Source of the DNA: an uncultured bacterium
GTDB taxonomy: Bacteria; Planctomycetota; UBA1135; GCA-002686595
Assembly (NCBI GenBank): GCA_937896235.1
Contig: CALBMX010000034.1
Coordinates: 1-64,000 of the forward strand
Length of the DNA stretch: 64,000 nucleotides
Direction of reading: 5' to 3'
A program made the translations under genes and the position numbers. Within the stretch, counting starts at the first letter, position 1, and every line of letters begins with the position of its first letter. The notes beneath the pieces were generated by a model, which did no database searches, was not told where the DNA came from, and saw only the letters and a program-made list of their open reading frames with translations. Shown piece after piece: positions 41,469 through 56,916 of the stretch.

Positions 41469-42413
41469 TCAAGCAGCGAAGGAGGTCACGAGGGACGAGA
41501 CGATCAAGTGCCAGCCGTCGACAAGGACAAACAGCAAGATTTTGAATGGTGTGGAGATCATCACTGGGGGCAACATGAACATGCCCATAGAGAGCAACAC
41601 GCTCGAGATCACTAGGTCGATAACGAGGAAGGGCAGGAACAATAAGAAGCCCATTTGAAAGGCCGTCTTTAGTTCACTCAAAATGAATGCGGGAACGACG
41701 ACACGCATGGGTGGCCTGTTCCCGGTAGCGGCTACAGCTGCTGCGGCGCTTCCGACTCCGGTTCCGACGTTGGCCTCTTGTGCACCTGCCGCTTTCGGGT
41801 CTGCGGTACTTGGCGTATTGGGTTCATAGCCAGCCATTCCTGTGAACAGTTCGATTTCACTCTGGCGTGTATTCGCCAACAAGAACACGGAGAGTTCATC
41901 CCAAGCGACATCGGAAGCCTCGCCTGCGGTCAGCTCTTCCTCTTGATAGGGAAGCCACGCCGACTCGTAGATGCTGCTTGCGATGGGCCCCATGACAAAT
42001 GCCGTCAAGAAGAGCGCAAGCCCGATCAACACGGGGTTCGGTGGCAGCTCGTTGATGGACATGGCGCGCCGTACAAACGACAGCACGATCACAATCCGCG
42101 TGAAGCAGGTCACCGTAATCAGGAGTGCCGGCAATACCGACAGCACCGTGAGGATGAGGGCGATCTCCACGGCCGTAGACGCAGGCGCCTCTGGGTCTTT
42201 GCTGCCCTCGCCCTCGGCGAGGGCCTGGTTTGGGCCCATGGCGGCGAGGCCATTGGTAAAACTCGCAACCATCGCGTCGCCAAGGCGCTCCCCCGATGAT
42301 GTGTTCGTCGGTCCGACGAAGCTGCTCTGCGCGTCGAAATCCTGCGCCTGGCTAGAAGCCGAGAACAGGATCGAGAGGCAGAGCCCTAGGATTAGGATCA
42401 AGCGACTACTCAT
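41469..42413 (-). CDS. fliP: flagellar export protein FliP
   Basis: FliP is the main ring of the export pore and has a cleavable signal peptide, seen here in the first 23 residues (LILILGLCLSILFSASSQAQ). The 314 residues include the hallmark LILTVLSVLPALLITVTCFTRIVIVLSFVR and the C-terminal LKTAFQMGFLLFLPFLVIDLVISS and MLPPVMISTPFKILLFVLVDGW segments. An insert of about 40 residues around 205-245 (rich in Ala, Gly, Thr and Pro) falls in the periplasmic loop and makes the protein longer than usual. The start overlaps fliO by 4 bases. Confidence 0.96.
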   Translation of the reverse strand: MSSRLILILGLCLSILFSASSQAQDFDAQSSFVGPTNTSSGERLGDAMVASFTNGLAAMGPNQALAEGEGSKDPEAPASTAVEIALILTVLSVLPALLITVTCFTRIVIVLSFVRRAMSINELPPNPVLIGLALFLTAFVMGPIASSIYESAWLPYQEEELTAGEASDVAWDELSVFLLANTRQSEIELFTGMAGYEPNTPSTADPKAAGAQEANVGTGVGSAAAAVAATGNRPPMRVVVPAFILSELKTAFQMGFLLFLPFLVIDLVISSVLLSMGMFMLPPVMISTPFKILLFVLVDGWHLIVSSLVTSFAA

Positions 42414-43159
42414 CCGACCCAGCCTCCGCCTACAGACTGCCTGTCCGTCGGTACCTCTTTGGGAGGCGAGGCCACTCGGGTGGCAGCTTCCGAGTACGTG
42501 ATTTCGGCGACGGCGGCCGGAGCGGCTGCCTTCGCTTGAGCGGCAGAGACCACTCGCGCCTCGCTGTGACCGCTATGGGCCAGGCTTTTGCGAGCAGAGG
42601 TCAATATGGAAGAGAAGAGGCCGACCTTCGGAGGAGCCGGTGCGGCCGGGATTAGGGCCGCTCCCTCTTCTTTGTTCTTTGGATGCGCAGCCTCGCGGTT
42701 TGCGATGATTTCGAGGTTCCCCTCGACATCTTCCGCAGCGTCGAGCTCGCTGATCAGGGTCACGTCACGCTCGCCCAACCCAAGAACGAAGGTGCGGTCA
42801 TAACAGCGAACGACTGCCAGCTGCCGCTTCCCACCTAAGGGAAGGATATCAACAACACGCATCGAACGTCGCGCAGCGCGACCACGCAGGTTGCCGGTTA
42901 GGACACGGCGGAATCCCCACGCCAGGGCCAGAATCGCAGCAACCAGGCCTAGGCAGACCATGGCATAGCGAGTCATGTCCACACCGGGCAGGCCGGTAGA
43001 TTTCTCCAGGGCGCTGGCAACCTCGGTACCTTCCGAGGTGATTTGAGCGAGGAAGGGCAGCCCAAAAAGGGCTCCCAGGGGGCTAAAAGCCGCGATTGGG
43101 GTGGTGTGGGTGTTGTTTTTCACTGCAGGTTTGGGGAAGACCCGGTTCTCCCGGGGCAT
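42410..43159 (-). CDS. fliO: flagellar biosynthesis protein FliO
   Basis: FliO is a bitopic scaffold for FliP assembly. I start at the ATG at 43159 (MPRENRVFPKPAV..., 249 residues); the frame opens at 43363 but the extra 68 residues look non-coding. One transmembrane helix lies at about residues 68-90 (AMVCLGLVAAILALAWGFRRV). The cytoplasmic FliO domain follows (RSMRVVDILPLGGKRQLAVVR, then YDRTFVLGLGERDVTLISEL). A long Ala-rich tail follows. It is the first gene of the fourteen-gene flagellar operon and is divergent from the glycosyltransferase island. Confidence 0.85.
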   Translation of the reverse strand: MPRENRVFPKPAVKNNTHTTPIAAFSPLGALFGLPFLAQITSEGTEVASALEKSTGLPGVDMTRYAMVCLGLVAAILALAWGFRRVLTGNLRGRAARRSMRVVDILPLGGKRQLAVVRCYDRTFVLGLGERDVTLISELDAAEDVEGNLEIIANREAAHPKNKEEGAALIPAAPAPPKVGLFSSILTSARKSLAHSGHSEARVVSAAQAKAAAPAAVAEITYSEAATRVASPPKEVPTDRQSVGGGWVG

Positions 43160-43415
43160 GCCACCTATCGGACGGCACACCGAAAAGCCTGATAGCACCA
43201 CGCATGCCATCTCCCGTTTTTGGGCGTAAAAACTTCCCTGGGCACCCCTAGGACCCTCTAAAGCATGTTCCTGCCCCCAAGAACCGCCCTTTCCCGGCCT
43301 CGCCCCACTAGTGAGAATTTTCCACATGTAGCGTTTTGCTACACAACCTGAACGCCCATTCACTCGATAGGAGCCGTGTACCGATCCAGAGCAAGAACCA
43401 CCTCTTCAAACTCTC

Positions 43416-45416
43416 ATGCCGCCAACAACAACCAATCCCGCACTTGCCCCTGTGCATCCGACCCGCATCCCCGCATTGCAGAGGGATGTGCGCTGGGCTA
43501 GTGCACTGCAGAGGGCCGTGCTTGCAAAAGAGCCGGCGGCCGCCCTGGCGCTTTGCGACGCGCTCGTATCCCATGAGCTGGATGACTTGGAGCGCTTCGC
43601 ATCCGCTGAAGAGCTAGATATTCGCCGGACGATCCATGAGATTGTCGATGACGCGCTGCGCGTGGTCGTCTTTACCCATGAGGCTCCTGGTGAAGAGTGG
43701 AGGCGAGTTTTCCTGCCTGACGAGTTTGGCCTCTTTGAGTTCCCCATGCTCATGTCGAATGCCGTTTGGCTGCGCCGTTGTGGATCGCGAGTCCCCGATG
43801 AAAATTCCGAGACCCTGCAGGCGGCGCAACTCAAGGCCCTCACTTTTAAGCAACAAGCACTAGCCGTCGGGCGCTTCTGCCTTTGCAACGACGGCCGAGC
43901 TGACATCAACTACGCTGCCGTGATTGCGGTCTTAGATCCGCGCCTTATCGCGAGCTTCAATAACTGGCTGCTGACGGTGCATTGCCTAAGTCCAAATCGG
44001 GTTGCCGAAGAAGACTCGGAGCAGAATCAAACCCGCGCACTCCAGGAATTCCTCGAGCTAGCGCAGCTCCCCCATGATCCACTTCCCGCATCTTCGTCAC
44101 AATCTGCGGCGTCCTTTGAAGGCGCCTATTGGACAGAGGGTTCGGTCCGAAAGCTCTCCGAGGAGCTCAACGGTCGGCAGATCAAAAACCTCTACAGGCA
44201 GTTTCATCCCAACGAGAGCGAGGAAGGGCCTCGCCGCGTCGAGCTCGATGCCCTGGAGAATACGGACACTCTTGTCATCTGCCCAAACTGGCACGACGAG
44301 CACGTGATCCACCGCTGCCTTTCTCCGCTCACCGAGGGCTTGCGCAGAGAGGGGGCTCTGAACCTCCGCGTTTTCGGCGCGGCGAGTGCCGGCCGCAAGC
44401 CAAAGGCCACGGACTGGGGCGAGCAGTCCATCGACGTCTTACACAGCGAGCAGTTCGTGCTTACCGATTTGTCGCTGATCAGCAGACGCATCCGAAATTC
44501 CGGCATCGACTTCGCCTTCTATCCAGAGATCGTCCCCTCGAACTCCTCCTCGTGGATGGCAACCGAACGTGTCGCGCGCGTCCAGGCAACAGGCTACGGA
44601 TTCCCCGTGACTAGCGGCCTTGCCACTATGGACTACTTCGTAGGCGGCGCCGCTGTCGAACCGAAGGAGACGGTCGGCAATGACCACACCGAGCAGCTCG
44701 TCCTCCTGCCTGGTTTGGGTGTAAGCACCACACCGCCACCTGTGCCACAAGTCAAACGACTGCGGCCCGTTGATGACGCGCAGGTTCACATCTGCGCGAC
44801 CTGCTCACAACAAAAACTGGGGACGAACCTACTGCGCGCTTGGGACTCCATCCAGCAAGGCGAATCAAATACGAGCCTCAGCCTGTTCACAAATATGACC
44901 GAGGCCCAGGCAAGCGCACGGTCCGCGGCAATCGGAAAGTTACTCGTTCACGGCGATGTCGATCTGAACTGCAGCATCCCCCGAGCCGACCTAATCGGCA
45001 TCATGGCCGACGCGGATCTCTACCTGGACTCCTTCCCCTATGGAGGGTTCAACTCTCTCGTCGAGGTCCTCGTTTGCGGTGTCCCCGTCCTTACACTGGA
45101 AGGCGATCAAGCTCGCAACCGCTTCGGCGCCGCCATACTTCGACGTCTCGGTCTCCCCGAGTTCCTCATCGCAAAAAGTTACGACGCGTACGTCCTTACG
45201 GCGAAGCGATTGATCCGCGACGCGGGGCTGCGGCAAGAGATCCGGGACAAGCTCGGCTCCCCTCAGAGCGTCCTTTCCAAGCTAGCCGATCCAGACATGT
45301 CGCATCACTTCGATGCTGCTGTCGAGTGGATGCGCCAGCAGGGACCACGTGGTCTATCGAGACGTGCACCGGTCCTAATCGAGGCCGGAGAGAAGCCTCG
45401 GTTCCTCATCAATTAA
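43416..45416 (+). CDS. HMW1C-like (TPR-less GT41) protein glycosyltransferase, copy 1
   Basis: The 666-residue protein ends in a GT41 (OGT/SPINDLY-type) catalytic domain: FAFYPEIVPSNSS, VQATGYGFPVTSG, ADLYLDSFPYGGFNSLVEVL, TLEGDQARNRFGAAILRRLGLPEFLIA. No TPR array is present. The first 270 residues are an all-helical domain ending in DPRLIASFNNWLLTVHCL, which parallels the alpha-domain of the bacterial cytosolic N-glycosyltransferase HMW1C. The expected catalytic histidine (His296 in WHDEHVIHR) and UDP-phosphate lysine (Lys467 in SQQKLGTNLLRAW) are conserved. It would transfer a hexose from a nucleotide sugar to a protein in the cytoplasm. Position next to fliO and upstream of a methyltransferase points to flagellin as target. 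N- versus O-linkage cannot be read from sequence. Confidence 0.82.
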   Translation: MPPTTTNPALAPVHPTRIPALQRDVRWASALQRAVLAKEPAAALALCDALVSHELDDLERFASAEELDIRRTIHEIVDDALRVVVFTHEAPGEEWRRVFLPDEFGLFEFPMLMSNAVWLRRCGSRVPDENSETLQAAQLKALTFKQQALAVGRFCLCNDGRADINYAAVIAVLDPRLIASFNNWLLTVHCLSPNRVAEEDSEQNQTRALQEFLELAQLPHDPLPASSSQSAASFEGAYWTEGSVRKLSEELNGRQIKNLYRQFHPNESEEGPRRVELDALENTDTLVICPNWHDEHVIHRCLSPLTEGLRREGALNLRVFGAASAGRKPKATDWGEQSIDVLHSEQFVLTDLSLISRRIRNSGIDFAFYPEIVPSNSSSWMATERVARVQATGYGFPVTSGLATMDYFVGGAAVEPKETVGNDHTEQLVLLPGLGVSTTPPPVPQVKRLRPVDDAQVHICATCSQQKLGTNLLRAWDSIQQGESNTSLSLFTNMTEAQASARSAAIGKLLVHGDVDLNCSIPRADLIGIMADADLYLDSFPYGGFNSLVEVLVCGVPVLTLEGDQARNRFGAAILRRLGLPEFLIAKSYDAYVLTAKRLIRDAGLRQEIRDKLGSPQSVLSKLADPDMSHHFDAAVEWMRQQGPRGLSRRAPVLIEAGEKPRFLIN

Positions 45417-45455
45417 CAAGCAAACTAGAATCCCCATACCTACGGCAATCGCTCC

Positions 45456-46796
45456 ATGACCCATAGCCACAAAGCACGTCAAACTGCCGATCCTATTACG
45501 CAAACACCACCGAATACCGATTCGGAAATCCTGGCAGCACTGCCAAACGTGACCGTTCCGCGATCGGCGAATATCTCGATAGCTAAGTTGATGGCACCGC
45601 CAGCAACGAAGTACTCCTGCCTTGCGTGCAAGTCGATCTACAACTATGAGATCGCTCACTGGGAGCGCATGCCGCTTTCGATCTTGGGGCTTCCTCGCAG
45701 CGAACGCGAAGCGCTTGACACACCAGATTACGAGATGAATGTGCGCCAATGCGCGAGCTGTAGTCACGTATTCCACACCGAGTTTCGCTACGAGCATGTC
45801 CCCTACCGGGATGGCTCCAACATGGTTTTCAATGAGAGCATCTTGTGGCGCGAATACCAAGACGACCTCGCCAAGGAGTGGGCACGGGACTACGGGATTC
45901 ACGACACGTGCGTGGTTGAGATTGGTTGTGGCGAGGGTCGCTTCCTCGAGCGCTTCCAGGCTTTCGGAAACCGCTGCATCGGATTCGAACCTGGACCGGA
46001 CTCCAAGCTCGTCATCGACCGTGGGATCGAGTGCTTCGCGGAGTACTTTCATGGCCGCAGACTATTCGACTTACAGCCCGAAGCTATCCTCTGCCGGCAC
46101 GTCCTCGAGCATCTCGACGCACCTGTCGACTTTCTAGAAGACATCGCGATTGCCTGCCGTGAAGCCGGCATGCAGCCTGTCGTACTTGCCGAAGTTCCCC
46201 TAATCGAAAAGGCGATTGAGCAGCGTCGGCTTAATGACTTCCAGTACGAACACGTCTCTTACTTCACTCAACTTTCGCTGCGAACCGCCTTTGAGCGAGC
46301 TGGCTTCGAAGTCCTAGATGTGCGTCCGCGATTTAATGAAGAGGTGGTGACGATCGCCGCGCGCCCGAAGATTGGCGCAACGCTTGAGCAGATTCGCAAC
46401 GGAGCTTTGGCCTTTAAGAATGGCGTCGACTCGCAAATTGTCAACGTGCAAACAACTCTCAAGAGCTGGCGCGATGCCGGAAAGAAGACCGCGCTCTGGG
46501 GAGGGACGGGACGCGGCACTGCCCTGATTAACATGTTTCGGATCACGCGGGATGTCGTAGACATCGTGATTGACTCCGACCTTCGAAAGTCTGGTGGATT
46601 CGTACCGGGTACCGGTCAAAAAATTCAACCGCCAAGTTTTCTCGACACCAACCCCGTGGACAGAATCGTTATCTGCACCAACTGGCGCGCACGTGACATC
46701 GAGCGCGAGATTCGAGAGGACTGTGGTCTAGATGCCGACCTCTTTGTCTATATCGAAGGGAAGCTTCGCCGGCTGACGGACTCTTCGCCGCTATGA
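45456..46796 (+). CDS. SAM-dependent methyltransferase with zinc-binding and C-terminal Rossmann-like domains
   Basis: The 446-residue protein has three parts. An N-terminal zinc-binding module has cysteines in CLACKS and CASCSHVF (about 46-102). A class I methyltransferase core has VVEIGCGEGRFLERF and ILCRHVLEHLDAPVDFL. A C-terminal half has KTALWGGTGRGTALINMF and a VDRIVICTNWRARDIEREI end. This is the layout of sugar C-methyltransferases (TylC3/NovU-like; Pfam Methyltransf_13/14 type). Those usually act on nucleotide sugars or glycans. It sits 39 bases after the first glycosyltransferase and overlaps the second by 4, so it probably tailors the sugar they use or transfer. Methylation of protein side chains is an alternative. 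Confidence 0.82.
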   Translation: MTHSHKARQTADPITQTPPNTDSEILAALPNVTVPRSANISIAKLMAPPATKYSCLACKSIYNYEIAHWERMPLSILGLPRSEREALDTPDYEMNVRQCASCSHVFHTEFRYEHVPYRDGSNMVFNESILWREYQDDLAKEWARDYGIHDTCVVEIGCGEGRFLERFQAFGNRCIGFEPGPDSKLVIDRGIECFAEYFHGRRLFDLQPEAILCRHVLEHLDAPVDFLEDIAIACREAGMQPVVLAEVPLIEKAIEQRRLNDFQYEHVSYFTQLSLRTAFERAGFEVLDVRPRFNEEVVTIAARPKIGATLEQIRNGALAFKNGVDSQIVNVQTTLKSWRDAGKKTALWGGTGRGTALINMFRITRDVVDIVIDSDLRKSGGFVPGTGQKIQPPSFLDTNPVDRIVICTNWRARDIEREIREDCGLDADLFVYIEGKLRRLTDSSPL

Positions 46797-48775
46797 TAAT
46801 GATCACCCAGCAAGATATCGCGCGCATCCAAGTGGACGCGGGGTTGGCTGCGACGATGCAGAGCGCTCTCCTCGCTGGCAACGAAGAGGCTGCCACGAGT
46901 GCGGCCCTTGTCTTACTTGCAACCTCACCCGAAGAGGTTGCCCGCGAGGCCTGCGCTGAGGAGCTCAGTATTCGCTTGATGGTCCACGAGATCGCTTCAA
47001 GTTTGATGACGGATCTGATTTTTAGCGACTCTCATGACGGGACGTTTTGGAGGCGCTTGATGCTCCCGACGGGCGGGGGAGTTCTCGGCTATCCCATCTG
47101 GATGGGGAACATTAAATGGATTCGATTATTCGGGGGCGAGCCGCCGAACCCCGACTCCCACACCCTGTGCGTAGAGGACCTGCGCAGCCGAAGTCTAGTG
47201 GCCCAGGCCAAAATGCTGGGGCGGTTTTGTGTCACTCACGATGCAGCTACTGCACTTGACTTCAGCAAGCTCGCCGACGCGCTCGACCCGCGCCTTATGC
47301 CGGTCTTCACCAGTTGGTTGTTGGGGACGTACATGCAAAGTCCTCACCATATGGTGAGCGATCTTGTTGCCTCGAACCAGGCGGCTGGGATGGACTCCTT
47401 CCTTGCTCGCTGGAAGAAGAAGCCGCTAAAGCAGGCGGCCTCTGCGATGGAGCTCACAACTTCGTTTCTCGTTGCCTATCGAGAAGACATCGACGTACGA
47501 GGGTCCGTTCAGGCGATACGCGGCAACCTAATGCGCGATCTCTTCACTTCGGTTAGGCCTCCCCCTGCCGAACATGGGGCCCAAGAGATACGCGACGAAC
47601 TACAACCACTTCTCACCACCGATGCGGCGCTGCTGTGCCCTAACTGGCGCGATGACCATGTTGCCTATCGGTGCCTAGCGGGTGCCGCCGAAGCCATGCG
47701 CAAACAAGGCAGTCTCGCCATTCAAGTTCATGCCAACGGCTCTCCCATCCGAGATCTCCGGGCAAAGTCCTGGCAGGACCAAACCGTGGCCGTCAACTTA
47801 TCCCCCAACAGTCACTACCTTCTGGAGCTCGGAAGGGTCGCTAACGAGATCGCTGCTGCGAACTTGGACTTTTTGTTCTATCCCGAAGTCACACCTAGCG
47901 ACTGCACTGCCTTTTTTGCAACACAGCGACTTGCTCGTGTTCAGGCTGTCGGCTATGGGTTCCCGCTCACTACGGGGTCTCCGCACATGGATTACTTTAT
48001 TGGAGGAAGTGAGGTTGAACTCGACAGCTCTGAGTACACCGAGCAGCTTGTTCTTCTTCCCGGGCTAGGGGTCAGCACGACTCCGCCACCTCTCTGTGAA
48101 TGGGAGCGAACGCGCGGCTACGACGACGGCGAGATCCGAATCGCCACGATTGCTTCGCACCAAAAACTGGGCGCCAACCTGCTACGTGCATGGGAGGCCA
48201 TCCTTGGCGATCGACCCCATGCTTCGATGGATTTGTTCCCCGCGCTAACTCCCAACCAAGCGAACGCGCTGCTGCCGGCTATGGCGACGCATCTGAAAGA
48301 TGCTTCGATAGATCTGCACCCTCGTGTCAAGAGGCAGGACATCCTGCGGTCGATTTGCGAGGCGGACCTCTACCTCGACACCTTCCCGTACGGCGGTTTC
48401 AACTCGCTCGTCGAGGTGCTTGTCGCTGGATGCCCGGTAGTCACTTTAGAGGGCAAACGTGCCCGGAACCGCTTTGGTGCCGCCATGTTACGCCGGCTCG
48501 AACTCCCCGAGTTCTTGATTGCAAAAACCCCTGCTGAGTTCGTCACCGCCGCGCGCCGGCTCATCGATGACCCCGGTTTGCGCATGGAGATTCGCGCGCA
48601 AATCGGCAGCCGCGAGCGGGTTCTTGCTCTTCTTGCAGACGATGACATTCACGAACACTTTGCCGCTGCGGTGGAGTGGATGCGCGAGCGCGGACCCAGC
48701 ACAGGAAAAAACCAACGCTCCAGGGCGCCCGTTCTAATTTGTGCCGGAGAGAAGCCTCAACTTCTCACCGCCTGA
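46793..48775 (+). CDS. HMW1C-like (TPR-less GT41) protein glycosyltransferase, copy 2
   Basis: A 660-residue paralogue of the 43416-45416 protein, similar along its whole length: helical N-terminal domain with DPRLMPVFTSWLLGTYM, then NWRDDHVAYRC (His289), ASHQKLGANLLRAW (Lys458), and ADLYLDTFPYGGFNSLVEVLVAG with LEGKRARNRFGAAMLRRLELPEFLIAKT. Active-site residues are kept in both copies, so both are likely active but may differ in acceptor or donor. Its ATG overlaps the methyltransferase stop. Both proteins end in a near-identical RAPVLI.AGEKP tail. It is convergent with the flagellar chaperone genes. Confidence 0.82.
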   Translation: MIMITQQDIARIQVDAGLAATMQSALLAGNEEAATSAALVLLATSPEEVAREACAEELSIRLMVHEIASSLMTDLIFSDSHDGTFWRRLMLPTGGGVLGYPIWMGNIKWIRLFGGEPPNPDSHTLCVEDLRSRSLVAQAKMLGRFCVTHDAATALDFSKLADALDPRLMPVFTSWLLGTYMQSPHHMVSDLVASNQAAGMDSFLARWKKKPLKQAASAMELTTSFLVAYREDIDVRGSVQAIRGNLMRDLFTSVRPPPAEHGAQEIRDELQPLLTTDAALLCPNWRDDHVAYRCLAGAAEAMRKQGSLAIQVHANGSPIRDLRAKSWQDQTVAVNLSPNSHYLLELGRVANEIAAANLDFLFYPEVTPSDCTAFFATQRLARVQAVGYGFPLTTGSPHMDYFIGGSEVELDSSEYTEQLVLLPGLGVSTTPPPLCEWERTRGYDDGEIRIATIASHQKLGANLLRAWEAILGDRPHASMDLFPALTPNQANALLPAMATHLKDASIDLHPRVKRQDILRSICEADLYLDTFPYGGFNSLVEVLVAGCPVVTLEGKRARNRFGAAMLRRLELPEFLIAKTPAEFVTAARRLIDDPGLRMEIRAQIGSRERVLALLADDDIHEHFAAAVEWMRERGPSTGKNQRSRAPVLICAGEKPQLLTA

Positions 48776-49042: not shown

Positions 49043-49408
49043 TTACCCGTGGAGGTTGCAGTCGATTCCCGTGCCACCCAAACTTACGAACTCCGCGTGG
49101 GAGTTTTGGCCGAGAGCCTTTCTAGATACGCGGACCTTCGAGATCTTCGCGGTAGTTGCAGCCATTTCAGCATTCATCATGTGCTTGACGAGCATATGAA
49201 TACCGTGGATTCGGTCCACCTTGGGCTTGAAGTGCTGGGGTAGCTTGCGCGCCCTTTGAAGCGCTTCGTTTAGGTCACGGTCCGCCTGTGTGTAACACTC
49301 CGTCAGGGTGTCGAGCTCGCGAGCGTCAAAGCCAACTCCCTCAAGCGCTGTCAATATACGTACAAGGGTTCCTTCAAAGCGGTCTAGGCTAGCTTCAAGG
49401 GTGCTCAT
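49043..49408 (-). CDS. FliT/FlgN-type flagellar chaperone candidate
   Basis: A 121-residue helical protein whose start overlaps the fliS stop by 4 bases. The first 75 residues form long amphipathic helices (LDRFEGTLVRILTALEGVG, then LTECYTQADRDLNEALQRARKL) like those of FliT or FlgN export chaperones. The C-terminal 45 residues (MLVKHMMNAEMAATTAKISKVRV...) are less typical. FliT binds FliD and blocks premature filament-cap assembly; the fliD-fliS-X order is where fliT normally sits. Similarity is low, so the name is positional. An 8-bp hairpin (49009-49016 with 49028-49035) follows the stop. Confidence 0.55.
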   Translation of the reverse strand: MSTLEASLDRFEGTLVRILTALEGVGFDARELDTLTECYTQADRDLNEALQRARKLPQHFKPKVDRIHGIHMLVKHMMNAEMAATTAKISKVRVSRKALGQNSHAEFVSLGGTGIDCNLHG

Positions 49409-49782
49409 CCTTGCTCCATCTCCAGGTCATTCCACGCAGAGAGAAGCGTCTGTAAAACCACCTTGGCATCCCCGACGCGCTCCAAACTGGAATCAGCGAT
49501 TGCTTCGATCAGACGAGCACTAATGAAAAGGTAGAGGCTCTCGAGCTCCACGCACAGCTCGGGTGCAGCGGACGCGTCCAAAGAGCACCGCAGCTCGCAG
49601 ACGATGGATTCAGCGCGCCCGACTCGCTCGTTGAAGCGCGGCAAATCGCCGGCCTCAAAAGCTTCCGCGGCTTGACCAAGAAAACGCAAGCTACCCTGAT
49701 ACAGCATGCGTACCAATTTCAGCGGTGGTGCGTTTTCAATCACAGCCTGCCGGTAGGCTGCAGTGGGATCAGAGTTACTCAT
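49405..49782 (-). CDS. fliS: flagellin export chaperone FliS
   Basis: FliS keeps flagellin unfolded and delivers it to FlhA. The 125-residue protein fits the family in length and in motifs: TAAYRQAVIENAPPLKLVRMLYQGSLRFL at the N terminus and a long helix with LYLFISARLIEAI in the C-terminal half. It starts 3 bases after fliD's stop and overlaps the FliT-like gene, a standard late flagellar trio. Confidence 0.92.
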   Translation of the reverse strand: MSNSDPTAAYRQAVIENAPPLKLVRMLYQGSLRFLGQAAEAFEAGDLPRFNERVGRAESIVCELRCSLDASAAPELCVELESLYLFISARLIEAIADSSLERVGDAKVVLQTLLSAWNDLEMEQG

Positions 49783-49785
49783 GGA

Positions 49786-51204
49786 TTACTGGTTATACCC
49801 AAGGGAAGTTAGATTATCGACGGCCGAACCCTGCACTTGGAGTTTGGCCATGAGGACTTCAAGCGCGGCGAACTTCGACACTTGGGCTTCCTCGAACTTA
49901 TCCAATCGATAGTTCATATCGATGATGTGATCTTTGAAGTCGGCGATGTTGTTGTTCAGGGCTTCCTTGCGAATAGCAAAGAGACCGTCCAGTGGGTCGC
50001 CGTTGATATCGTTGCCGGTAGAGTCGAGCAAGTAGTCGATTTCTGTGGAGAGCTTCGAGAATGCGCCGGTGGTCTCGTCACCGAAGAAATCGGCGAACGC
50101 GTTGATGTCGCCGGACATCTTCTCACCAAGCTTGTCGTCGTCAATTGTCAGGTTGCCGTTCTGATCGATATCAATGCCAACCAAACTCAGACTTGAATAG
50201 CCTTTGGTGTCCGCCATCACTGTGGCGGGGTCGGCTGCAATGAAACCGTTATACATACGCGACCGCACCGTCTGTAGGATGCGCTCGCCAAACAGCTCGC
50301 CGCCCGCTCCGTCGTCCTCCGAGTACTTACTCTGCACTTCGATGAAACTCGAGACTGCGTTGTAAGCTTGGACGAATTCCTTCAGGCTCTCTTTTATCGC
50401 CTCTTGGTCAACGGTTACGCCGAATGTGATGGGCTCGGTTGTAAGGGCAATCGCATCGATTGTCACTCCCGGAACGACGTCACTGAAGTCGTTGCCGGCC
50501 CGGTTCACGAGCAAGCCATCTATTTTGGCCTGTGCGTTAGAGGCCACCGAAAGCGGGACAGGATCGAAAGCGAGGTTGGCGTCTAAGGTGCCTGGTCCAG
50601 CGCCAGTTATGGTGAGATTCTCGATCGAGTAATCGGCACCGGTATCGTTTCCAGCGAGTACGAGCTGGTAGCTTGGTGACGATTCGGTTCCGGTGTTCAC
50701 CACACTCGCCGTAACGTCTGCACTGATCGTTGCGTCCCCATTGATCCTCGAAGCAATCTGATTCAGACTTGACTCCGCCGGGTCAACGACAAGCGTGTGG
50801 CTGGTTCCGTTATAGGTAAACGAGATCGCGCCTCCATCGAGCTGGGCATCTGGATCGGTAATGCCAACCGTTGCCCGGCGATCCGAAGCTGCCAGGCTAA
50901 TCACCTCTAGAGTGTGTGATCCGGTGAGCGGAGTTCCGGTAACCGTAAAGTTGGCATACCCATCTTTGCTGGGTGTAACCAGGTGACTTAGGAATCCGCC
51001 GAGGGAGCTCAGCGCGTTCGCTTTCTCCTGAACGGTCGCCACAAGCGCTTGCAGGCTAGAGATCAGGCTCAGCTTCTTCTCTTCAGCAGCCTGCTTGGCC
51101 TCCTCCGTTTTAATAGGGATCGCTTCCGCGCCAACAAGGGCATTGATAATGGCCGTCGTATCGAGGCCACTGGCTAATCCGCCAAAGCTAAGTGATGTTG
51201 TCAT
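49786..51204 (-). CDS. fliD: flagellar filament cap protein FliD (HAP2)
   Basis: FliD caps the growing filament and folds incoming flagellin. The 472 residues show the family N terminus (SFGGLASGLDTTAIINALV, then TKEEAKQAAEEKKLSLISSLQAL) and a C-terminal coiled-coil region (DFKDHIIDMNYRLDKFEEAQVSKFAALEVLMAKLQ) ending with the exposed LGYNQ tail. A Shine-Dalgarno AGGAG lies about 9 bases before the ATG. A sigma-28-type promoter lies 41-68 bases upstream of the ATG. It is followed by fliS and a fliT-like gene in one operon. Confidence 0.95.
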   Translation of the reverse strand: MTTSLSFGGLASGLDTTAIINALVGAEAIPIKTEEAKQAAEEKKLSLISSLQALVATVQEKANALSSLGGFLSHLVTPSKDGYANFTVTGTPLTGSHTLEVISLAASDRRATVGITDPDAQLDGGAISFTYNGTSHTLVVDPAESSLNQIASRINGDATISADVTASVVNTGTESSPSYQLVLAGNDTGADYSIENLTITGAGPGTLDANLAFDPVPLSVASNAQAKIDGLLVNRAGNDFSDVVPGVTIDAIALTTEPITFGVTVDQEAIKESLKEFVQAYNAVSSFIEVQSKYSEDDGAGGELFGERILQTVRSRMYNGFIAADPATVMADTKGYSSLSLVGIDIDQNGNLTIDDDKLGEKMSGDINAFADFFGDETTGAFSKLSTEIDYLLDSTGNDINGDPLDGLFAIRKEALNNNIADFKDHIIDMNYRLDKFEEAQVSKFAALEVLMAKLQVQGSAVDNLTSLGYNQ

Positions 51205-51794: not shown

Positions 51795-52619
51795 CTAGCC
51801 GAGGAGGCTCAAAGCACTCTGCGGCTGGGAGTTCGCCTGAGCGAGCACCGATGTCGCAGCCTGTTGCAGGATCCGGTTCTTGGTGAGCTCGGCCGTTTCA
51901 GAGGCCACGTCCACGTCGCGGATCCGGCTTTCAGCGCCGGAGAGGTTTTCAGAGTTCGTTGCGATAGAACGCATTGCACTTTGAAGACGGTTTTGGGTTG
52001 CACCGAAGTCACCACGCTGGGTAACCACGGAGTCAACTGCCGTGTCGATAGCGGCCAAAGCCGTGCTCGCGGTAGCGGCGCTCGTGATGTTGAGAGTTGC
52101 CTTATCAACGCCAAGTGCAACGGCCTGCATGTCCGTCGTGGCGATCGCGATGGTCTGACCGGAGTCGACACCCACTTGGATGGCGATCGAAGCGGTCGAA
52201 CCGTCGAGAACTTTGATGCCGTTGAACTCGGTGTCGTTGCCAACACGTTCGACTTCGTCAGCAAGAGCACCGAACTCTGAGTTCAGAGACGCACGGTCCG
52301 CAGTGTTGAGCGTTCCGTTGGCCGCCTCAACGGCAAGTTCACGCATACGGACCAAGTTTCCGCTAACCTCGCCCAGAGCGCCTTCAGCGGTCTGAACCAA
52401 GCTCACGCCGTCCTGGGCGTTACGTGAAGCCATGTTGAGCGAGCGGACTTGGCCACGCATGCGCTCGGAAATACCGAGACCAGCGGCGTCGTCGGCCGCG
52501 GTTACGATACGAAGACCAGAAGACAGTTTGGCGAAAGATCCGCCAAGCTTTTCACCGTGAACGGCGAGGTTTTTCTGAGCGTTGATTGAATAGTTGTTTG
52601 TGTTAACTCTGAGAGCCAT
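51795..52619 (-). CDS. flagellin A
   Basis: A 274-residue flagellin made only of the D0/D1 core, with no variable D2/D3 insert. The N-terminal helices read ALRVNTNNYSINAQKNLA, FAKLSSGLRIVTAADDAAGL and NAQDGVSLVQTAEGAL. The C terminus has MRSIATNSENLSGAESRIRD and QAATSVLAQANSQPQSALSLL. I use the ATG at 52619; the longer frame to 52721 is non-homologous. N-x-S/T sequons include NYS, NGT, NDT, NIT and NLS, of interest given the HMW1C-like enzymes nearby. It is most similar to flagellin C (54448-55275). It is a separate transcription unit with its own terminator; no clear promoter match was found upstream. Confidence 0.95.
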   Translation of the reverse strand: MALRVNTNNYSINAQKNLAVHGEKLGGSFAKLSSGLRIVTAADDAAGLGISERMRGQVRSLNMASRNAQDGVSLVQTAEGALGEVSGNLVRMRELAVEAANGTLNTADRASLNSEFGALADEVERVGNDTEFNGIKVLDGSTASIAIQVGVDSGQTIAIATTDMQAVALGVDKATLNITSAATASTALAAIDTAVDSVVTQRGDFGATQNRLQSAMRSIATNSENLSGAESRIRDVDVASETAELTKNRILQQAATSVLAQANSQPQSALSLLG

Positions 52620-53232
52620 AACTTTTCTTTTGTTAGAGAATTTGGAGAAATTGGGAAGCCCACATGGGCCGGAAGCTCCACGCTTTTCCACCCGACCGTC
52701 GTTCGCCACAAGCTCCGGCACTAGGCCAGAGCCTAAGACGGTTTGAGTCGGGCGAGCGCGAATGCTCGAGTTTCTGCGGGGGCCTTATAACGACACTCGC
52801 TGCCGAGGAATAAGTCCGTTCAAAGGGACTAACGGCATGAGTGACCAGCGCGCCGAAGGTTCGGCGTGCTTAGGCATTCCCCAGACCTACAACTTGCGCT
52901 GCGGGCTGGGTCATTTCACGAATTGTTCAAAGAGCGATCGGCAAACTAGGTTTGTCGAATTCGGTTCTGCGCTATCGATGTAGCACAGTGATCTGGGGGC
53001 CTGGGTGCCGTTCCTGGAGCTGTCGCTCACAAGGGGATTGGCTCTCATACCTTCCTTGTTCAGCACCTTGGGTCCCCATATAGAGACTGCCCAAGCACGG
53101 CACTAACGAGAAATGCCACCCGTCCACAACCTGACACAACGCCAAACGTGCGCTCTTTGCGCGCCGCTTGATGAGGCTCAAAAGTTGGTGGTGATGGTGG
53201 CGTTCTAGATTATGCATGGTGACTAGGGCGGT
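52620..53232. other. non-coding stretch upstream of flagellin gene A
   Basis: About 610 bases hold the flagellin A leader and promoter, but I could not find a good sigma-28 or sigma-54 match. The best partial FliA -10-like word is at about 52945-52950 (ATCGGC on the plus strand). No credible open frame is present. The long leader-sized space is repeated between the other flagellin genes. Confidence 0.4.
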
Positions 53233-53273
53233 CCCAGGTGGGGCAGGCCGCGGACGGGCGGCCTGCCCCTGGG
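53233..53273 (-). terminator. GC-rich hairpin after flagellin gene B
   Basis: A perfect 12-bp stem GGGGCAGGCCGC (53240-53251) with GCGGCCTGCCCC (53258-53269) has a 6-base loop, extended by CCCA/TGGG outside a small bulge. There is no U-run downstream on the minus strand, so it may terminate weakly or stabilise the mRNA 3' end. Confidence 0.65.
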
Positions 53274-53288
53274 AACCAAAGCCCCAGA

Positions 53289-54110
53289 TCAGCCTTGAAG
53301 TAGGCTTAGTGCGATCTGGGGTTGCTGGTTGGCTTGCGCCAAGATGGACGCAGAAGCCTGTTGAAGGATTTGGTTTCGAGTGAGGGTTGCAGTCTCTGCA
53401 GCCACGTCGACGTCTCGGATTCGGCTCTCGGCCGCTGCGAGGTTTTCGACAGAGGTGGCAATCGAGCGCATCGCACTCGACATACGGTTCTGGCTTGCAC
53501 CGAGCTGCCCTCGGAAGGAGACAACGGTGTTGACTGCAAGGTCAATCGCACCGAGTGCTGCCGATGCGTTTGTCGCGTCGATGACACTCAATACGTCGAT
53601 GCCTAGGTCGCCGTCCGTAGTTCCACCGAGTGCTACGGTGATCACTTGGCCGGAGTCTGCGCCCGTTTGGATGTCGATCGGTGGGCTCAAGCCGTCAAGC
53701 AGATTGATTCCGTTGAACGCCGTAGTGAGGGCGATTCTGTCGATCTCAGCGACCAGCTCGGTGAACTCTGCGTTCAGTGAGGTTCGGTCGGATGTGTTCA
53801 AGGTTCCGTTGGCCGATTCGATGGCGAGTTCGCGCATCCGGACCAAGTTGGAGTTCACTTCGGAGAGCGCGCCCTCTGCGGTTTGCACCAGGCTGACACC
53901 ATCTTGGGCGTTGCGCTGGGCCATTTGAAGCGAGCGGATCTCGCTGCGCATGCGCTCGGAGATGCCGAGGCCGGCGGGGTCGTCCGCTGCGCTCACAATC
54001 CGGAGTCCGGAGGAGAGGCGAGCGAAGCTGCTCTGAAGTTGGTTCGAGTGATTGGCCAGGTTTTTCTGGGCAGTCATCGAGAAGATGTTGGTGTTTACTC
54101 TGAGGCTCAT
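53289..54110 (-). CDS. flagellin B (protein identical to flagellin D)
   Basis: A 273-residue core flagellin: SLRVNTNIFSMTAQKNLA, SSGLRIVSAADDPAGLGISE, and the C terminus SRIRDVDVAAETATLTRNQI then ASILAQANQQPQIALSLLQG. The central linker (about 150-185) is the only variable part and has a NAS sequon. The translated protein is identical to that of the gene at 55882-56703, while codons differ only near both ends (TCA versus CTA at the stop, for example). It has a short CACGGGAACCA leader element shared with flagellin D. No FliA-type promoter was found. Confidence 0.95.
   Translation of the reverse strand: MSLRVNTNIFSMTAQKNLANHSNQLQSSFARLSSGLRIVSAADDPAGLGISERMRSEIRSLQMAQRNAQDGVSLVQTAEGALSEVNSNLVRMRELAIESANGTLNTSDRTSLNAEFTELVAEIDRIALTTAFNGINLLDGLSPPIDIQTGADSGQVITVALGGTTDGDLGIDVLSVIDATNASAALGAIDLAVNTVVSFRGQLGASQNRMSSAMRSIATSVENLAAAESRIRDVDVAAETATLTRNQILQQASASILAQANQQPQIALSLLQG
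53343..54095. repeat. duplicated flagellin core block, copy 1
   Basis: This stretch of about 753 bases inside flagellin gene B appears identical to 55936-56688 inside flagellin gene D (constant offset 2593) at every position I compared. The overlapping translations in other frames also agree. The first 50 and last 15 bases of the two genes carry synonymous differences, which mark the block edges. This points to recent gene conversion or duplication. Confidence 0.85.
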
Positions 54111-54351
54111 GATTGGTTCCCGTGGTAGTGAGTTCTCATATGATTAGTCAGGCAGCTGAGTTGTCCGGCTCGGCTTCCCGTGTCCGAGTTTGTTCTCGGA
54201 GGGCCGGGGATCCGCATGAGTCTTTCCACCAATAAAGTTGGAAGTTTCTCGAGACGCGGCTCGATCCGGGGCACAGGAAGTGCGTTGCTGGGGCTGCTAG
54301 AGCTGTTTTAGAGAATCATCGTCCTTGGAAAAGCCTCGTCCGTGTGGAAGC
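54111..54351. other. upstream region of flagellin gene B
   Basis: No gene seen. It holds the flagellin B leader. On the minus strand a TGGAAAGACTCATGC word (around 54212-54226) has GG and GC doublets with 10-base spacing, as in a sigma-54 promoter, but it matches the rest of the consensus poorly and was not found before the other flagellin genes. Confidence 0.3.
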
Positions 54352-54431
54352 AAAAAAGGGGAGGAGGTGGGTCCTCCGCTGGACAAGCGGAGGACCCAAA
54401 GTCGGCGACCCACGGGAGAGTCGCCTCCTCC
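54352..54431 (-). terminator. branched terminator of flagellin gene C
   Basis: A perfect 12-bp hairpin (54369-54380 with 54386-54397, GGGTCCTCCGCT) and a second hairpin (GGCGAC/GTCGCC, 54404-54409 with 54420-54425) are both enclosed by an outer GGAGGAGG/CCTCCTCC pairing (54360-54367 with 54424-54431). On the minus strand the outer stem is followed by a U6 tract (54352-54357). It lies 16 bases after the stop. Confidence 0.75.
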
Positions 54432-54447
54432 AGAGAGGTTTATCTGC

Positions 54448-55275
54448 CTAGCCCTGGAGCAAGCTCATTGCGAGCTGCGGTTGGGTGTTGGCTTGTCCAA
54501 GCACCGAGGTTGCTGCCTGCTGCAGAATCCGGTTTTTGGTGAGTTCGGCCGTTTCGGCGGCCACATCGACGTCGCGGATACGACTCTCGGCACCCGAGAG
54601 GTTCTCCGAGGCGGTAGCAATCGAGCGCATGGCACTCGAGAGGCGGTTTTGGTTGGCACCGAAGTCACCTCGTTGGGCAACAACAGAGTCGATTGCGATA
54701 TCGAGTGCACCGAGTGCAGCGCTTGCACTTACGGCGGTGGTCACGCTCAAGGTAGCTTTATCAACACCTAGAGCGACGGCCTGCATGTCTGTGGACGTGA
54801 TGTCGATCGTCTGGCCGGATCCTGTGCCAACTTGGATGGAGATCGTGGCGGTTGTTCCATCGAGAATCTTGATGCCGTTGAACTCAGCGTCGTTACCAAC
54901 ACGTTCGATTTCATCAGCAAGGGCTGCGAATTCCTGGTCTAGGGAGGTCCGGTCGGCTGTGCTTAGCGTTCCGTTAGCTGCCTCGACGGACAGTTCGCGC
55001 ATTCGGATCAGGTTGCCACTCACCTCAGCGAGTGCTCCCTCTGCCGTTTGTACGAGGCTGACACCGTCTTGTGCATTTCGTTGAGCCATTCCAAGGGAGC
55101 GGATCTCAGCACGCATGCGTTCGGAGATACCGAGTCCAGCGGCGTCGTCTGCCGCACTTACGATGCGCAGTCCTGACGACAGTTTGGCGAAGCTACCAGC
55201 GAGTTTTTCGCTGTGGACGGACAAGTTCTTTTGTGCCGTCATGGAGAAGAGGTTTGTGTTGACTGCAAGAGCCAT
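54448..55275 (-). CDS. flagellin C
   Basis: A 275-residue D0/D1-only flagellin starting ALAVNTNLFSMTAQKNL and ending QAATSVLGQANTQPQLAMSLLQG. It is closer to flagellin A (shared FAKLSSGLRIVSAADDAAGL, DTEFNGIK/DAEFNGIK and MQAVALGVDKATL segments) than to B and D. The four genes therefore form two pairs. An AGGA sequence lies about 9 bases before the ATG. It has its own branched terminator. Multiple similar flagellins often form spatially or environmentally tuned filaments. Confidence 0.95.
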   Translation of the reverse strand: MALAVNTNLFSMTAQKNLSVHSEKLAGSFAKLSSGLRIVSAADDAAGLGISERMRAEIRSLGMAQRNAQDGVSLVQTAEGALAEVSGNLIRMRELSVEAANGTLSTADRTSLDQEFAALADEIERVGNDAEFNGIKILDGTTATISIQVGTGSGQTIDITSTDMQAVALGVDKATLSVTTAVSASAALGALDIAIDSVVAQRGDFGANQNRLSSAMRSIATASENLSGAESRIRDVDVAAETAELTKNRILQQAATSVLGQANTQPQLAMSLLQG

Positions 55276-55826
55276 GATGTGTCCTGGGTTATGTCTGGAG
55301 GAATGCCCGAATCAATGTGGTTTGGGCGGTTTGAATATCTCTAAAAGCCCGCGCAGTTAGAGTGGAAGGTTCATCTCAAACTCATAATGAGTTCGAGCTG
55401 GCCCGCCGAGCTGGCCCTACCACCATCCGGCACCCCGAGGGGCGACGGATGGATCGAAGCAAAGCCGAGAAAGGAAAAAAAACGGTATAGATGAACCCCT
55501 ATACCAGGGGTGTTTCTTTGTGCTCGGGGGGGGGCAGGGTGCATACCTAACTTGTTTGGAACAAGGCAGTTGGAGACGTCTGCGTATGCTGGTGGAAGCT
55601 CGCACACCGGGACCACACACGGGCCCTGTAGGGCTTTGGTATCAGCTCGTCGTGAGCGGTACTTTGTGGTGGAGTTAGGCATGACAAATAGGGGGTTTGT
55701 GGCTTCTTTTTGGACAGAGCGGTGGCCGCACTGTCGCTGGGTTACTCGTTGTTTTCGAGCTGCGGTTTTTATGGGACTCGTCACGACAACCGCAAGTTGC
55801 AACGAGTTGATTTAGGTTTTGAGGTG
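55276..55826. other. intergenic stretch between flagellin genes C and D
   Basis: Holds the flagellin C leader (55276-55380), an orphan minus-strand terminator (55474-55505) and little else that I recognise. A 44-codon plus-strand frame at 55681-55815 has a hydrophobic stretch with a lipobox-like TTASC close to its end. It has GGAG about 8 bases upstream, but the mature part would be only a few residues, so I do not call it. Confidence 0.35.
55474..55505 (-). terminator. orphan intrinsic terminator
   Basis: A 7-bp stem GGTATAG/CTATACC (55484-55490 with 55499-55505) has an 8-base loop and is followed on the minus strand by a U-rich run (A-run at about 55475-55482). No gene ends just upstream on that strand except flagellin D, 377 bases away, so it may end read-through from D or an unannotated small RNA. 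Confidence 0.65.
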
Positions 55827-55868
55827 CCCCGGATGGAGCAAATCACGGACGTGTGATTTGCTCCGGGG
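55827..55868 (-). terminator. hairpin after flagellin gene D
   Basis: A perfect 12-bp stem GGAGCAAATCAC (55835-55846) with GTGATTTGCTCC (55853-55864) has a 6-base loop, extended by CCCC/GGGG across a bulge. No U-run follows on the minus strand. It is 13 bases after the flagellin D stop. Confidence 0.65.
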
Positions 55869-55881
55869 AACCGCCCTCGGA

Positions 55882-56703
55882 CTAACCTTGAAGTAAGCTC
55901 AAAGCAATCTGGGGTTGTTGATTGGCTTGCGCCAGGATGGACGCAGAAGCCTGTTGAAGGATTTGGTTTCGAGTGAGGGTTGCAGTCTCTGCAGCCACGT
56001 CGACGTCTCGGATTCGGCTCTCGGCCGCTGCGAGGTTTTCGACAGAGGTGGCAATCGAGCGCATCGCACTCGACATACGGTTCTGGCTTGCACCGAGCTG
56101 CCCTCGGAAGGAGACAACGGTGTTGACTGCAAGGTCAATCGCACCGAGTGCTGCCGATGCGTTTGTCGCGTCGATGACACTCAATACGTCGATGCCTAGG
56201 TCGCCGTCCGTAGTTCCACCGAGTGCTACGGTGATCACTTGGCCGGAGTCTGCGCCCGTTTGGATGTCGATCGGTGGGCTCAAGCCGTCAAGCAGATTGA
56301 TTCCGTTGAACGCCGTAGTGAGGGCGATTCTGTCGATCTCAGCGACCAGCTCGGTGAACTCTGCGTTCAGTGAGGTTCGGTCGGATGTGTTCAAGGTTCC
56401 GTTGGCCGATTCGATGGCGAGTTCGCGCATCCGGACCAAGTTGGAGTTCACTTCGGAGAGCGCGCCCTCTGCGGTTTGCACCAGGCTGACACCATCTTGG
56501 GCGTTGCGCTGGGCCATTTGAAGCGAGCGGATCTCGCTGCGCATGCGCTCGGAGATGCCGAGGCCGGCGGGGTCGTCCGCTGCGCTCACAATCCGGAGTC
56601 CGGAGGAGAGGCGAGCGAAGCTGCTCTGAAGTTGGTTCGAGTGATTGGCCAGGTTTTTCTGGGCAGTCATCGAGAAGATGTTGGTGTTGACTCGGAGGCT
56701 CAT
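55882..56703 (-). CDS. flagellin D (protein identical to flagellin B)
   Basis: A 273-residue core flagellin with the same translated sequence as flagellin B. I use the ATG at 56703; the frame extends to 56763 with unrelated residues. The leader carries the same CACGGGAACCA element just upstream of the ATG as gene B. Differences at the gene ends are synonymous, so selection or gene conversion keeps the protein constant. It is divergent from the regulatory gene at 56917, with about 210 bases between the two starts. Confidence 0.95.
   Translation of the reverse strand: MSLRVNTNIFSMTAQKNLANHSNQLQSSFARLSSGLRIVSAADDPAGLGISERMRSEIRSLQMAQRNAQDGVSLVQTAEGALSEVNSNLVRMRELAIESANGTLNTSDRTSLNAEFTELVAEIDRIALTTAFNGINLLDGLSPPIDIQTGADSGQVITVALGGTTDGDLGIDVLSVIDATNASAALGAIDLAVNTVVSFRGQLGASQNRMSSAMRSIATSVENLAAAESRIRDVDVAAETATLTRNQILQQASASILAQANQQPQIALSLLQG
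55936..56688. repeat. duplicated flagellin core block, copy 2
   Basis: The counterpart of 53343-54095, in the same orientation. Flanking intergenic sequences of the two genes differ apart from a short leader element, so the repeat is confined to coding sequence. Confidence 0.85.
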
Positions 56704-56916
56704 TGTTGTGGTTCCCGTGGAATGAGTGGTGAGTTGAAAAATCCAGAGGCGCTTGCCGGTCATCGTCCAATGACCTTTTTGGTGGCGTGCTCCTTTGGTG
56801 TCCAGAGCAGTTCTCGGACCCCGCGGGTTCGGCTGAAGCTTAGATCGTGATTTTGTGTGGAAAGTCGTGCCCCAGCAGCCGAAGGTGGCGTCCAGAATCG
56901 GAGAACCTTCATCTCT

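Follow-up and report, generated by a model that had tools for sequence, protein, structure and literature searches.

Genes of glycosyltransferase family GT41 (SPINDLY/COG3914), mostly with methyltransferase domains, are known by sequence from enterobacterial flagellin glycosylation islands (PMC4875605), and FlmG of Caulobacter is a characterised glycosyltransferase that modifies flagellin in the cytosol and binds its substrate through the N-terminal domain (PMC7591256). A third related group comprises the HMW1C N-glycosyltransferases (NGTs), such as ApNGT (3q3e) and AaNGT (8p0o/8p0q), which are cytosolic, lack tetratricopeptide repeats (TPRs), combine an all-alpha domain (AAD) with a GT-B domain and pair with adhesins. 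Here, we describe three genes, GT1, MT and GT2, in a flagellar locus of a member of the Planctomycetota, located in a window of 64,000 nucleotides (contig CALBMX010000034.1, or C34, of a 4.26-Mb draft genome). GT1 and GT2 are GT41 paralogues with a predicted HMW1C-like architecture, and MT is a predicted sugar-type methyltransferase. We regard it as fairly probable that they constitute a flagellar glycosylation operon that modifies flagellin in the cytosol, with O-linkage more likely than N-linkage.

The planctomycete operon resembles the enterobacterial islands in that GT41 genes of a flagellar cluster are tied to methyltransferase functions. However, the enterobacterial enzymes are SPINDLY-type, mostly fused to an AdoMet_MTase domain and encoded between fliC and fliA (PMC4875605), whereas the planctomycete locus carries a duplicated HMW1C-like glycosyltransferase and a separate C-methyltransferase-type MT between fliO and fliS. 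FlmG offers a parallel as a cytosolic glycosyltransferase that acts before export by means of a flagellin-binding N-terminal domain (PMC7591256), but it differs in its TPRs and in its use of pseudaminic acid. A search of open-access papers found neither a description of an HMW1C-architecture enzyme encoded among flagellar genes nor a paper dedicated to flagellin glycosylation in Planctomycetota; the latter subject appears to be undescribed so far. The association of GT41 enzymes with methyltransferases in flagellin glycosylation islands is already known; the predicted novelty is a dispensable operon of HMW1C architecture that lacks the sequon-reading dyad. If this reading is true, the HMW1C-type architecture extends from adhesins to the flagellum.

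Operon structure and predicted enzymes

GT1, MT and GT2 all lie on the + strand and fill the space between fliO and the fliS-fliD-flagellin genes (Table 1). GT1 and MT are 39 bp apart, and the start of GT2 overlaps the stop of MT by 4 bp; from this layout, the three genes are a same-strand operon. The open reading frames (ORFs) are not due to chance because full-length homologues occupy the equal flagellar position in other genera. Both GT1 and GT2 scored above the Pfam cut-off of 25 bits for Glyco_transf_41 (PF13844), and they share 42% identity end to end (655 columns). No TPR family matched either protein, even when matches with E up to 1 were admitted, and the TPR array of the OGT/SPINDLY type was thus not found. 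A sequence-only reading of the window had proposed three genes between fliO and the fliD/flagellin block, with two TPR-less GT41 paralogues duplicated around a methyltransferase, and the ORFs and Pfam matches agree with it on both points. Horizontal transfer was rejected on composition, as the GC content of the island and that at third codon positions (GC3) resemble those of the flagellar neighbours.

The AlphaFold2 model of GT2 (pLDDT, a per-residue confidence score, 83; predicted template modelling score, 0.84) consists of a helical N-terminal domain, as the sequence-only reading had anticipated, and a GT-B domain. In a Foldseek search with this model, HMW1C NGTs ranked at the top with TM-scores of 0.66–0.69 over the full length, and VIA-align gave Z values of about 32 across 554–565 residues covering both domains. 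TtOGT and SPINDLY equalled the NGTs in Z, yet only about 420 of their residues were aligned. The profile alignment to 3q3e spans the N-terminal through the catalytic domain. When modelled alone, the N-terminal domain yielded a less confident model with Z of 5.8–6.4 to the NGTs over 186–202 residues. A fold search with this isolated domain gave many low-scoring helical matches, with the NGT domains among the top ones, a result compatible with an NGT-like domain without deciding the matter. A two-domain, TPR-less, HMW1C-like architecture is supported for GT1 and GT2 by the full-length comparison of the predicted model together with the profile alignment.

This likeness did not extend to a clear family assignment. 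GT1 and GT2 share 16–18% identity with the HMW1C NGTs, and the NCBIfam NGT model (NF049992) scored 48.5 and 66 bits for the two proteins, far below its cut-off of 1000. In a tree of the catalytic domains, the planctomycete enzymes formed their own clade (90/100) and the NGTs were on a long branch, while a joint clade with the NGTs was neither supported nor rejected (p of the approximately unbiased test, p-AU, 0.42). These data do not establish GT1 and GT2 as members of the NGT family: the phylogeny that had been suggested as a check did not place the enzymes with HMW1C, although such a placement was not rejected.

The active site was compared with that of ApNGT by aligning seven family members (ApNGT numbering is used unless GT2 is stated). 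The equivalents of His277, Lys441 and Asn521 are kept in GT1 and GT2, and the first two bear out the earlier assignment of an active-site His and Lys. Asn521 contacts the donor glucose in AaNGT, and its retention hints at a UDP-hexose-like donor. The ribose-binding Asp525 is replaced by Glu in every member that has this region, and Glu is also found in SPY and TtOGT. A homologue from Pla86 (L029 9857-11926) is without the His277 and Asn521 equivalents and may lack activity or accept a different donor.

The acceptor-recognition residues differ from those of the NGTs. In AaNGT, Arg177, His214 and Asp215 of the AAD bind the sequon residues at +2 and +3, with Arg177 and Asp215 holding the Ser/Thr at +2, and the R177A and D215A mutants are inactive (PMC10507012). 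The column of Arg177, which is anchored by a common S/T-P motif just before it, reads H/N/A/G/S/D/E in the seven members, and that of Asp215 reads T/A/G/E/N/A/S; the R177/D215 dyad is thus missing in 7/7. His214 is also replaced throughout, and GT1 has N/S/A at the three positions. At 17% identity, the alignment to ApNGT may be locally off; even so, no Arg adjoins the S/T-P motif in GT2. The residues invariant in the AAD of the family are L168, W175, P184 and Q196 (GT2 numbering). The replaced columns indicate that the family has the NGT scaffold without the known sequon reader. The operon would therefore provide a natural test of acceptor recognition, in which an equal two-domain scaffold lacks the known sequon-reading residues.

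MT matched Methyltransf_23 (PF13489) and Methyltransf_14 (PF08484, the C-methyltransferase C-terminal domain), and its best profile matches in the PDB were the D-mycarose 3-C-methyltransferase MtmC (112 bits) and TcaB9 (90 bits). An N-terminal Cys4 site (C55/C58 and C99/C102) is invariant, as are E265-H266 of an EHVS motif, as aligned to 4rv9. MT therefore shares with MtmC and TcaB9 the Cys4 site, the S-adenosylmethionine (SAM) domain, the C-terminal domain and the aligned EH motif, in accordance with the nucleotide-sugar C-methyltransferase type claimed by the sequence-only reading. It differs from them in that the profile similarity is weak (about 90–112 bits), the N-terminal PF08421 is not matched and no deoxysugar pathway genes adjoin MT. 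This methyltransferase type predicts a branched-chain sugar.

Conservation and loss among relatives

The position of the genes in the flagellar locus is conserved beyond the genus. In a genome of another genus (G015), the order is fliO-MT-GT-fliS-fliD-fliC, and its single glycosyltransferase is 45% identical to GT2; in a further genome of another genus (G046), the order is fliO-MT-GT up to the end of the contig. In G001, which belongs to the same genus as the window, a C-terminal remnant of GT1 with an internal stop is directly followed by a C-terminal remnant of MT between fliO and fliS (L106 7403-7940), while fliO, fliP, flhB, fliS, fliD and four flagellin genes are still present. These remnants indicate that the ancestor of the genus had GT1-MT and that the operon was lost by deletion while the flagellar genes survived. 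The decayed copy in this sister species suggests that the modification can vanish while the flagellar genes stay.

Glycosyltransferase profile matches were obtained in 8 of 81 family genomes, one of which (G007) matched only in the catalytic domain and grouped with TtOGT/SPINDLY. The MT subfamily (>700 bits) was present in 5 of 154 class genomes, all of them among the seven carriers of a full-length glycosyltransferase (hypergeometric probability 3e-8, phylogeny ignored), and MT adjoined an intact or partial glycosyltransferase gene in all five. From these gene orders, the link of the glycosyltransferase-MT pair with the flagellar locus is supported as conserved.

Several results weigh against a flagellar role. 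Flagellins were found in 70 of 101 relatives, compared with only eight genomes with a glycosyltransferase match, which suggests that the modification is optional. No flagellar genes lie near the glycosyltransferase genes of Pla86 (G017) and G012. In G012 (L022 9718-16451), an intact MT relative stands beside a C-terminal glycosyltransferase fragment and three polysaccharide-type glycosyltransferases. In G057 (L023 1-4429), the glycosyltransferase gene spans a break at the contig end, and genes with a prepilin-type N-terminal methylation motif are on its other side, which suggests a pilus-like substrate there. These non-flagellar settings imply that the enzymes are not inherently flagellar. Moreover, the operon comes without genes for the synthesis of nucleotide sugars. 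Among other GT41 genes, no flagellar context was found at five further loci of the phylum or at eight contig loci.

Acceptor, linkage and alternative readings

The HMW1C-like architecture, the sugar-type MT and the conserved flagellar link make flagellin or another exported flagellar protein the best-guess acceptor. The proposal of the sequence-only reading that flagellin is glycosylated thus holds as regards the flagellar locus, while the choice of flagellin itself is an inference. In the proposed mechanism, one glycosyltransferase would recognise flagellin, or a different exported protein of the flagellum, in an unfolded or chaperone-bound state through its all-alpha N-terminal domain in the cytosol before export, and would transfer a sugar from a nucleotide donor to side chains, of which Ser/Thr are more probable targets than Asn-X-Ser/Thr. 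Its paralogue would act on other sites or other flagellins, or add a second sugar. MT would C-methylate the nucleotide sugar, or methylate the glycan, resulting in a methylated glycan, and the modification would be dispensable for having a flagellum. A nonulosonate donor, as in FlmG/Maf systems, was rejected since NeuB is not tied to the island: it is present in G000, but in the carriers G015 and G046 it is absent or matched at no more than about 30 bits, a further difference from FlmG.

The sequence-only reading had raised N-linkage, by which both enzymes would place a hexose from a UDP-hexose donor on Asn of flagellin N-X-S/T sequons. Such HMW1C-type N-glycosylation would fit the full-length fold match to ApNGT and AaNGT (554–565 residues, including the all-alpha domain), the retained Asn521 and an N-G-T sequon at position 101 of nearly all flagellins. 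However, this sequon sits in the conserved D1 region whether the island is present or not, and the flagellins of island carriers are not enriched in sequons (4.0 per flagellin compared with 4.5 in others, p = 0.40; 6 vs. 49 sequences), so enrichment was rejected. The sequon-reading R177/D215 and H214 are replaced in 7/7 members, Asp525 has become Glu, the enzymes form their own clade and their scores fall far below the NGT cut-off. Cytosolic N-glycosylation of flagellin is thus not supported, as the evidence weighs against it, and we consider it quite improbable. We likewise give a low probability to a dedicated class of cytosolic flagellin glycosyltransferases that would attach a C-methylated branched-chain sugar to Asn by sequon-independent recognition through the HMW1C-like all-alpha domain. 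Within the middle region of flagellin, the Ser/Thr content of carriers was if anything lower (0.24 vs. 0.30, p = 0.019, in a small non-independent sample); it was not raised and therefore gave no positive sign of O-acceptor enrichment.

The patchy distribution of the glycosyltransferases and the G012 and G057 settings described above would also suit an operon whose products synthesise or alter a polysaccharide of the cell surface, or a different surface protein (pili, for example), and which reached its flagellar site by chance insertion. This is unlikely in our judgement, given the equal flagellar position in three genera, with remnants in a fourth genome, and the fact that proteins are the substrates of GT41 enzymes whose function is known; the neighbourhood of the operon is also free of polysaccharide genes. 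Within the favoured reading, a flagellar glycosylation operon, a possible but tentative refinement is that GT1 initiates and GT2 extends the glycan to a disaccharide, one residue of which is methylated by MT. The two diverged paralogues flanking MT (42% identity) and the addition of mono- and di-hexoses by HMW1C (PMC3012730) are consistent with this, but one glycosyltransferase with MT suffices in G015, and the sequence gives no sign that separates an initiator from an extender. Agt/AmGGT was discarded as a precedent for an elongation partner because Agt belongs to GT4, not GT41 (PMC12159676).

Flanking features

The 34-bp block between fliO and GT1 (Table 1) is present as a single copy genome-wide. 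It shows 97% identity in G001, which lost the operon, with one change in the palindrome; the palindrome is identical in G015, where it lies between fliO and MT. Its conservation makes the block a candidate flagellar regulatory site, and the palindrome may control the expression of fliO, of the operon or of both.

Table 1. Operon genes and flanking features, with positions in the window
Feature	Coordinates	Strand	Matches and remarks
fliO, divergent gene on the left flank; its real start is uncertain and may lie near 43170	42410..43363	-	PF04347; orthologues adjoin the island in G015 and G046
Conserved 34-bp block holding the perfect palindrome GTAGCGTTTTGCTAC (43328-43342), fliO/GT1 divergent region	43311..43344	.	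Candidate operator or promoter element
GT1, predicted TPR-less GT41 glycosyltransferase, HMW1C architecture, 666 aa	43416..45416	+	PF13844, 42.6 bits
MT, predicted class I SAM methyltransferase, nucleoside diphosphate (NDP)-sugar C-methyltransferase layout, 446 aa	45456..46796	+	PF13489, PF08484
GT2, paralogue of GT1, 660 aa; counterpart of the single flagellar-locus glycosyltransferase in G015	46793..48775	+	PF13844, 48.3 bits
Small flagellar-locus ORF in fliT-like chaperone position	49043..49408	-	No Pfam match; kept in G001
fliS, flagellin chaperone	49405..49782	-	PF02561
fliD, filament cap	49786..51204	-	PF07195, PF02465
Four flagellin genes (51795, 53289, 54448, 55882), presumed acceptors	51795..56763	-	PF00669/PF00700

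The small ORF ahead of fliS is 34% identical to its counterpart in G001 and is possibly a divergent flagellar chaperone. Two of the flagellin genes (53293-54133 and 55886-56727) are 98% identical over 843 bp and encode identical proteins, with another flagellin gene in between, which points to a recent duplication or gene conversion.

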